Positions 9,779-11,327 of a stretch of DNA of 64,000 nt are shown piece after piece; positions within the stretch are counted from its first letter, which is position 1, and every line of letters starts with the position of its first letter. The position numbers and the translations under genes were made by a program. The DNA is from Bacteroidota bacterium. Lineage in GTDB: Bacteria > Bacteroidota > Bacteroidia > B-17B0 > Aurantibacillaceae. A model generated the notes under the pieces. That model saw only the letters and a list, made by a program, of their open reading frames with translations. It was not told the origin of the DNA and searched no databases. The DNA is taken from contig CAUJCR010000001.1 in NCBI GenBank assembly GCA_963169355.1, forward strand, positions 62,001-126,000, in the 5' to 3' direction.

Positions 9779-10231
9779 TCACTCTCCTCTCAATTTATCC
9801 AACAAATCATTTAAGGTATTAATTTCGGAAGTGCTGAGTGTGGTAAATAATTGTTTGGCAGCATCGTCCATAACATCTAAGCTGGATAACAAGGCTAACC
9901 CTTTTTTGGTAATTAGCACATCTACATTTCTTCTATCCTCAGCGCTTTGCTTTCTTTGTAAAAAACCTTTGTTATACAATTTATCTACAATTCTAGAAGT
10001 ATCGCTCATTTTATCCAACATCCGCTCTTTTATTAATTTAATGTTACAGGGCTTAGGATATTGTCCTCTTAAAATTCGTAACACATTATATTGTTGCATG
10101 GTTACATCAGCCTGTTTAAATAAACTTTCATTTTTAGCATTAAGCCAGTTATTGGTATAATGAATGTTTAACATTAATTTTTGCTCAATGCTCTTAAATT
10201 TTTTTTGCTGTATTTCTTTTTCTAATTTCAC
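9779..10231 (-). CDS. MarR-family transcriptional regulator
   Basis: 150 residues with a central winged helix: a recognition-helix region around NIKLIKERMLDKMSDTSRIVDKLYNKG (residues about 65-90), then the wing RKQSAEDRRNVDV with the conserved D-x-R. MarR proteins bind palindromes as dimers and are usually released by small phenolic or lipophilic ligands. It lies directly downstream of yceI, separated by a terminator, and the yceI promoter holds two palindromic boxes that make it the natural candidate operator. A MarR next to a YceI gene is a common Bacteroidota pairing; the regulation itself is inferred. Confidence 0.88.
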   Translation of the reverse strand: MKLEKEIQQKKFKSIEQKLMLNIHYTNNWLNAKNESLFKQADVTMQQYNVLRILRGQYPKPCNIKLIKERMLDKMSDTSRIVDKLYNKGFLQRKQSAEDRRNVDVLITKKGLALLSSLDVMDDAAKQLFTTLSTSEINTLNDLLDKLRGE

Positions 10232-10247
10232 GGCATTACAATATTAT

Positions 10248-10280
10248 AAAAAAGTCCTGCTCATTCAAGCAGGACTTTTT
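10248..10280 (-). terminator. Rho-independent terminator between yceI and marR
   Basis: AAAAAGTCCTGCT, a 5-nt loop, then AGCAGGACTTTTT form a stem of about 13 bp with T/A runs on both sides, so it could act in either direction. It follows yceI by 16 bp and lies 16 bp before the marR ATG, which implies marR is expressed by readthrough or from a promoter inside this short gap. Confidence 0.85.
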
Positions 10281-10296: not shown

Positions 10297-10890
10297 TTAT
10301 TTGGCTTTGGTCATCTCTACAATAATATCTAATCTTACCTCATCACTTACTGCTACTCCACCAGCTTCGAGTGCAGCATTCCAAGTTAAGCCATAATCTT
10401 TTCTGTTTAACTTACCAGTTACTTTAAACGCATAACGTTCCATACCATACGGATCTTTTACAACCTTTGAAGCTCCAATTGCTGTAAGCGTAACTGGCTT
10501 TGTAACTCCATGCACAGTTAAATCGCCTACTAACGTGTAAGTACCTTTAATTTTACCTGGTTTCATTGATTTACTTACGAATGTAATTTCAGGATATTTA
10601 GCTACATCAAAAAAATCAGGACTTTTTAAATGTCCATCTCTTTTTTCGTCATCTGTATTAATGCTTGACGCATCTACTGTAAACTCAATTTTAGCATCTG
10701 TAAAATCTAAATCAGATTTTGAAGAAACTGTTCCTTTATACACTTTAAATTTCCCTTCGGTTTCACTTACCATCATGTGAGTAACTGCAAAACCTAATTT
10801 ACTGTGTGAGGCATCAATATTCCAATTTACTTGTGCCTTTGCGCCCACCGAAAAAGCGATGATTGCCGCTAATGTTTTAATTGATTTCAT
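10297..10890 (-). CDS. YceI-family periplasmic lipid-binding protein
   Basis: The start is set at the ATG at 10890, giving 197 residues with a clean signal peptide (MKSIK, a hydrophobic core, GAKAQ cleavage region near residue 20). An in-frame upstream start 36 bp earlier would put charged residues before the signal. The mature protein is a lipocalin-like YceI domain, with WNIDASHSKLGF at its start and the DFFDVAKYPEITF motif (about 96-108). Family members bind isoprenoid or other amphiphiles in the periplasm. Expression is probably controlled by the neighbouring MarR through boxes in the promoter, and a terminator follows. Confidence 0.9.
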   Translation of the reverse strand: MKSIKTLAAIIAFSVGAKAQVNWNIDASHSKLGFAVTHMMVSETEGKFKVYKGTVSSKSDLDFTDAKIEFTVDASSINTDDEKRDGHLKSPDFFDVAKYPEITFVSKSMKPGKIKGTYTLVGDLTVHGVTKPVTLTAIGASKVVKDPYGMERYAFKVTGKLNRKDYGLTWNAALEAGGVAVSDEVRLDIIVEMTKAK

Positions 10891-10923: not shown

Positions 10924-10957
10924 CAAATATATGTTATAACATTTAATGTTACAACAT
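10924..10957 (-). promoter_or_regulatory. yceI promoter with twin palindromic MarR-type operator
   Basis: On the minus strand TTG (10954-10952) lies 20 bp before TATATTTG (10931-10924), a Bacteroidota sigma-A promoter. Two similar boxes, ATGTTATAACAT (10931-10942, a perfect palindrome) and ATGTTACAACAT (10946-10957), sit 15 bp apart and fill the space between the -33 and -7 elements. A repressor bound there would block RNA polymerase. Assignment to the MarR product encoded downstream is inference. Confidence 0.6.
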
Positions 10958-11327
10958 ATAATTAAGAAATTTTGTTAAAATGAAAATGGAGCGACATTTA
11001 AAAAGAATTGCCTGCGATAGTTTGTTTGTAGAGATTAAATATCATTTATACTGTGGAGTCCACTACTTCACCCTAGCCGCACGGTCAAAAATCTTAATCG
11101 TAACCCTCCCATAATTAGGACTAGTTGTAAATATACGAAGTCTAGTGTGTATGTATTCAATCGAAAGTCTACTTTTAAACTGTCCTATTTTTTTAGAGGG
11201 TTACGCATCAATATAATTAAAGCATTGTGGATATTGAGCAACTATTATTTTATGTAATAGCAGAGTAACAATGACTATGTATTTTTTAAACTTCATTTTT
11301 TATTGAATTTTACAAAAGTAAAATTTC
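10958..11327. other. Gene-free stretch with a possible decayed coding remnant
   Basis: No convincing gene. On the minus strand a 40-codon frame (about 11067-11188) ends in PNYGRVTIKIFDRAARVK, which faintly resembles the PN-x-G-x-V-T-I-x-I-F-D-x-x-G-R-V start of T9SS sorting domains and may be a relic. A perfect 10-bp inverted repeat (CGTAACCCTC at 11099-11108, GAGGGTTACG at 11196-11205) spans 107 bp. Both signals are weak. Confidence 0.3.

Follow-up and report, generated by a model that had tools for sequence, protein, structure and literature searches.

Twin palindromic boxes over a yceI promoter, a candidate operator for the adjacent MarR-family regulator

A yceI gene in the window (the whole 64 kb stretch of DNA analysed here) is followed by a gene for a MarR-family protein, and two short palindromic boxes lie on the promoter upstream of the pair. 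The question raised by this arrangement is whether the boxes are the operator of the neighbouring regulator and, if so, which other genes are likely to share it. The initial annotation had put the boxes 15 bp apart on the yceI promoter, and both were found there (Table 1). It also had them lying exactly between the TTG and the -7 element; they are indeed on the promoter, but the upstream box contains the TTG and the downstream box has one base in common with TATATTTG (10931-10924), hence the boxes overlay both promoter elements.

Table 1. Features of the yceI-marR locus, in window coordinates
Feature	Position	Strand	Remarks
Upstream candidate operator box, ATGTTGTAACAT (yceI direction)	10946..10957	-	Contains the putative -33 TTG
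Downstream candidate operator box, ATGTTATAACAT	10931..10942	-	Its final base also begins the -7 element
Putative -7 element, TATATTTG	10924..10931	-	Fits the TAnnTTTG consensus, Bacteroidota primary sigma factor
Putative -33 TTG	10952..10954	-	20 bp before the -7 element, within the upstream box
yceI, 197 aa, YceI family, first operon gene	10297..10890	-	Reading frame; PF04264, E 3.2e-49
Stem-loop with U-run, terminator-like, between yceI and marR	10249..10280	-
marR, 150 aa, GTG start, proposed repressor	9779..10231	-	Asp77 in the recognition helix

The boxes, the promoter and the two genes

Read on the forward strand, positions 10931-10942 are ATGTTATAACAT and positions 10946-10957 are ATGTTACAACAT, the distance from start to start being 15 bp. 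The former is a perfect 12 bp palindrome; the latter has perfect 5 bp arms around a non-palindromic AC centre, such that 10 of its 12 positions are self-complementary. In the direction of the gene, the promoter reads ATGTTGTAACAT-TAA-ATGTTATAACAT-ATATTTG. Promoters of this type have a -33 element in addition to the -7 element. An excess of G in the upstream box (39/63 against 13/63, p about 4e-6, with rows that are not independent) was considered as proof of the -33 TTG and set aside as weak, C being likewise commoner across the centre. According to PMC9723704, the primary sigma factor of Bacteroidota has TAnnTTTG as its -7 consensus. An E. coli-type sigma-70 promoter was rejected, with six found against 8.1 expected in shuffled sequences, and no Rfam match to a structured RNA was detected at the locus.

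On the basis of base composition, chance would give 0.07 exact copies of ATGTTRYAACAT per 64 kb and 3.7 in the genome, and about 1e-7 exact pairs at the fixed 15 bp spacing within the window. The window shows no excess of single boxes with up to two mismatches (15 against 26 expected). The genome has four exact boxes, two of them at the yceI promoter, and the other two (L003 and L004) lie inside long reading frames; single boxes were rejected as operators on the grounds of this intragenic location and of the lack of enrichment of mismatched copies in the window. The twin pattern, with up to three mismatches allowed, occurs once in the whole genome, and the control gave zero.

The start of yceI was taken to be the ATG at 10890-10888, an upstream TTG start also being listed. 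The marR product matches the MarR winged-helix domain (PF01047, E 4.5e-11, above its cut-off), and its matches in the PDB are MarR proteins. Eleven of the named NCBIfam equivalogs (HpaR, SlyA, MprA, MarR, OhrR, FabT and others) matched, none at its cut-off, the best being HpaR with 43.2 of the 121.2 bits needed. A cysteine switch of the OhrR kind was discounted, as the sole cysteine, Cys62, is Ser, Ala, Thr or another residue in many relatives with the same operator.

Distribution of the twin motif and its associated genes

Loci for comparison came from two sources: 60 relatives, which contributed 30 retained loci, and named stretches, of which 217 matched and the best 80 were used. After de-duplication, and with the window included, this gave 69 loci in which yceI is upstream of marR on the same strand, at a distance of up to 2.5 kb, and has a readable promoter. 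The initial annotation had staked its proposal on conservation of the motif upstream of yceI genes paired with this MarR, and such conservation was found: the twin motif matches at least 19 of 24 specified positions in 64 of the 69, related loci being non-independent observations, whilst the maximum among 1,380 mononucleotide-shuffled promoters was 18. The loci below 19 are L027 (18), L008, L068 and L106 (17 each) and L055 (13); the contig of L008 ends within the upstream box, and the other yceI of L055 scores 21. Only one convincing box is present at L024 and L057, both scoring 19, and L024 and L027 have a single box each. All four arms are conserved, the core G-T-T and A-A-C positions mostly having 1.5-2.0 bits, with the 3 bp spacer and the box centres less conserved. 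When the 60 relatives were searched whole with up to three mismatches, the twin was found in 20 genomes, 17 times at yceI, against 1/60 in the control; the three twins away from yceI (G015, G035 and G051) have three mismatches each.

Paralogues of yceI that are not beside this MarR, of 41-46% identity and from 10 related genomes, lack the motif in every case (0/10), their best general scores being 9-11 of 18 compared with 18/18 in the window. The operator is decayed in three genomes of this genus whose marR and nearest yceI do not share a contig. G015, where the two genes are separated in this manner, has a twin matching 10+10 of 12+12 positions; G001 and G014, also with separate contigs, have one exact box and a ruined second, their score of 19 corresponding to a shifted register. 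Amongst distant yceI-marR pairs, L191 has a twin scoring 17/18, and L170 a twin scoring 15 of the type with A as the fifth base of the half-site (A-type, as opposed to T-type).

A scan blind to genes was made of 296 genomes of the class, using the pattern ATGT-N4-ACAT-N3-ATGT-N4-ACAT followed by AYATTTG with one mismatch allowed. It returned 61 matches in 49 genomes and none in the backward control; with each palindromic site counted once, these are 58 distinct sites, each read from a locus. The first gene is yceI at 29 sites, this MarR at 23, pirin at four, and a SnoaL-like gene and an old yellow enzyme gene (Oxidored_FMN, in the direction opposite to the pattern match) at one each, the yceI and MarR assignments having been made by BLAST to the two window proteins (weakest yceI match E 1.7e-5). 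The twin motif is specific enough to annotate members of the regulon by pattern alone, 58/58 sites falling to five gene families. The initial annotation's choice of the neighbouring MarR as repressor gains from these data, as yceI or MarR is first at 52 of the 58 sites and the motif is conserved in pairs and absent from unpaired paralogues; however, the distant pairs L166, L175 and L182 have no twin, and the association does not extend to them. Seven genomes (G135, G164, G172, G195, G212, G233 and G236) have two or three separate twin promoters, one of which is always that of MarR, hence action in trans fits. Of the 296 genomes, 212 encode a MarR relative with an E value of 1e-20 or lower and 49 have the strict twin, so the twin marks only part of the family.

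At some other loci, mostly in Ignavibacteria and their relatives, genes for pirin, nitroreductase, OsmC and a Fer4_19-CDGSH protein lie between yceI and marR. Together with the old yellow enzyme and SnoaL-like genes, this gene content suggests that the regulon responds to electrophiles or quinones. To our knowledge, YceI and pirin are widespread proteins with poorly defined physiological roles; the common operator connects them with a single regulator and with genes for nitroreductase, old yellow enzyme and OsmC, and this shared regulation points to a common stress and offers a direct route to an inducer screen. No description of this MarR regulon was found in the literature on YceI, pirin and Bacteroidetes MarR regulation, as judged by titles and abstract openings, and in the available part of an article on Bacteroides pirins (PMC11304471) MarR and nitroreductase occur only in the references. 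This is a candidate MarR regulon, perhaps for electrophile stress, of which no account was found in print.

Two further observations concern individual loci. In the long yceI-...-pirin-marR operons of L049, L056 and L061, a 98 aa protein, with no Pfam match in the case of L049, is encoded beside the OsmC and CDGSH genes. G026 and G032 each have a second MarR (L183 and L185), preceded by a twin-like TTGTT..AACAA arrangement with an N3 spacer and an imperfect second box before the -7 element; as this distant MarR paralogue has twin-like boxes of its own, the 15 bp twin layout may predate this MarR subgroup.

Residue 77 of MarR and the fifth base of the operator

Most relatives have the recognition-helix motif [S/C]-[D/N]-x-[S/T]-R, to which residue 77 belongs; of the 258 aligned MarR relatives, 167 have Asp at this position, 90 have Asn and one lacks the residue. 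Where the operator type is clear (112 relatives), residue 77 agrees with base 5 of the half-site in 109 (Asp with T, 72; Asn with A, 37), the exceptions being two Asn-T combinations and one Asp-A (L211), and no other column of the MarR alignment has as much mutual information as column 77. Three residue changes and six operator changes were placed on the tree, with one independent pair when supported branches are used and three over all branches, numbers too small to be significant; a Fisher value was disregarded, as it counts the rows as independent. Since there are only about three residue switches on the tree, the association is a strong lead, and not proof, that the operator letters change in step with residue 77.

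In SlyA, Ser62, Val64 and Arg65 contact bases, and these residues correspond to Asp65, Ser67 and Gln68 of CouR, according to the available part of PMC4737184. By our own register Asp77 would align with SlyA Ser62 and CouR Asp65, an assignment that is not certain because the phmmer alignment to the SlyA chain has a gap at this point. As operator type tracks the residue at this SlyA base-contact position, the motif would be tied to this MarR family. In changing together, residue 77 and base 5 provide a natural two-letter test of the choice of DNA by a MarR protein.

Amongst 24 genomes with an Asp77 MarR that is not beside yceI, a T-type twin is present anywhere in three, and in one for the control. 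One of the three lies inside an ABC-transporter gene, another precedes a SnoaL-like gene (L327) and the last precedes a nitroreductase-pirin pair (L328). In a broader interpretation, which falls a little short of being probable, Asp or Asn at position 77 would switch the operator between ATGTT..AACAT and ATGTA..TACAT whilst the 15 bp twin stays fixed. One old, class-wide regulon for electrophile stress (yceI, marR, pirin, nitroreductase, old yellow enzyme and SnoaL-like genes) would then have split into two insulated forms, namely a linked yceI-terminator-marR operon in the Asp form and, in the Asn form, a marR that regulates itself and acts in trans on yceI or pirin. In G236, the yceI next to the Asp-type MarR of L211 has an A-type operator, and the genome also has an Asn-type MarR (L278); cross-regulation between the two forms is possible there.

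Predicted mechanism and its alternatives

An inverted repeat of operator type covers the promoter of the linked gene and is conserved together with the regulator. The boxes are very probably the operator of the adjacent MarR, with two dimers over the promoter giving repression, an inducer causing their release and read-through leading to marR. Each 12 bp box (5-2-5, ATGTT-RY-AACAT) would bind one MarR dimer, and the dimers, 15 bp or about 1.4 turns apart, would be on nearly opposite faces of the DNA; between them they would occupy the -33 to -7 region of the promoter and exclude RNA polymerase. With its gene second in the same transcription unit, MarR would limit its own synthesis, the stem-loop before marR would keep its level low relative to YceI, and an inducer, most likely an electrophile, a quinone or an aromatic compound, would release the dimers. 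We infer the binding by MarR, repression as opposed to activation, the presence of two dimers at once, the class of inducer and the read-through past the stem-loop.

Conservation, uniqueness in the genome, association with a gene set and absence from the examined unpaired paralogues support the operator reading. Counting against it are the 116 of 258 MarR relatives with no twin detected nearby, the limited spread of the strict twin (49 of 296 genomes), the few T-type twins in genomes whose Asp77 MarR is apart from yceI (three of 24), and the yceI-marR pairs that have one box or none. The boxes might form one operator only, in which a single dimer binds the inner inverted repeat AACAT-N3-ATGTT, with an accessory role for the outer arms. 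An inverted repeat with an odd spacer is indeed made by the inner arms, and all four arms are conserved; yet the outer arms are as conserved as the inner (G-T-T at 1.8-1.9 bits upstream, A-A-C at 1.5-1.9 bits downstream), decayed sites (L024, L027, L128 and L129) keep a whole 12 bp box and not the inner repeat, and the CouR repeat ATTGA--TCAAT matches the 5-2-5 box and not a 5-3-5 one, all of which makes such an arrangement very improbable. A shade less credible again is that some other transcription factor binds the boxes and the MarR neighbour is coincidental: whilst 116 of the 258 MarR relatives have no twin detected nearby, as might then be expected, the MarR gene is itself first at 23/58 of the gene-blind sites and operator type tracks residue 77. 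Least probable of all is that MarR, once bound to the boxes, activates yceI or lifts its silencing, as relatives of SlyA and RovA can be countersilencers (by the title of PMC6401476); here the boxes are on the promoter elements themselves, a position that favours exclusion of the polymerase, and the sites that precede marR likewise extend into the -7 box.

Described systems offer partial parallels to the proposed MarR operator, as far as the available portions of their sources extend. CouR of Rhodococcus jostii and SlyA are, as here, winged-helix MarR proteins on 5-2-5 inverted repeats over promoter elements (PMC4737184), and CouR has Asp where, in our own register, Asp77 aligns; however, the CouR sites are single repeats at aromatic catabolism genes, whereas here there are two boxes at 15 bp and targets of the yceI and pirin type. 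SCO3205 of Streptomyces coelicolor is likewise a MarR-family protein with a palindromic operator, the footprint of which is about 24 bp (PMC3737563), hence a pair of dimers at a 15 bp spacing could be accommodated only on different faces of the DNA; its operators are single, unrelated in sequence and from another phylum. The small operon of MgxR (Bxe_B3018, Burkholderia xenovorans) contains its own gene and a YceI gene, as here, and is induced when MgxR leaves the DNA on exposure to methylglyoxal, an electrophile (PMC4349456), but MgxR is from the TetR family and another phylum, has a different operator and shares its operon with a GlpT-like transporter. By analogy, the present system appears to work as other MarR repressors do, with short palindromes over a promoter and a linked regulator and target; the twin geometry and the specificity lead set it apart, binding and repression being predicted. 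NemR, MhqR and YodB are quinone or electrophile regulators of nitroreductases, old yellow enzymes and similar genes; these resemble the wider regulon found here, the main targets of which are YceI, MarR and pirin.

There are 73 yceI-marR loci with a gap of less than 400 nt, 50 of which have a gap of at least 30 nt. A stem-loop followed by a U-run is present in 40 of these 50, compared with 0.3% of shuffled gaps, and for 37 of the 40 the distance from the end of the stem to the start codon of marR is 6-22 nt; in the shorter gaps a stem-loop of this kind was found at 0/23 loci. Every gap in 27 loci inspected closely folds into a stem-loop and the sequences differ, hence it is the arrangement, not the sequence, that has been kept. 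We infer that marR is reached by read-through past the stem-loop, so that little repressor would be made.

On the other side of the operon, the window and its nearest relative (L006, with a marR 98% identical) stop matching upstream of the yceI promoter, at approximately 10990-11327. This gap of roughly 330 bp lies before a pseudouridine synthase gene.
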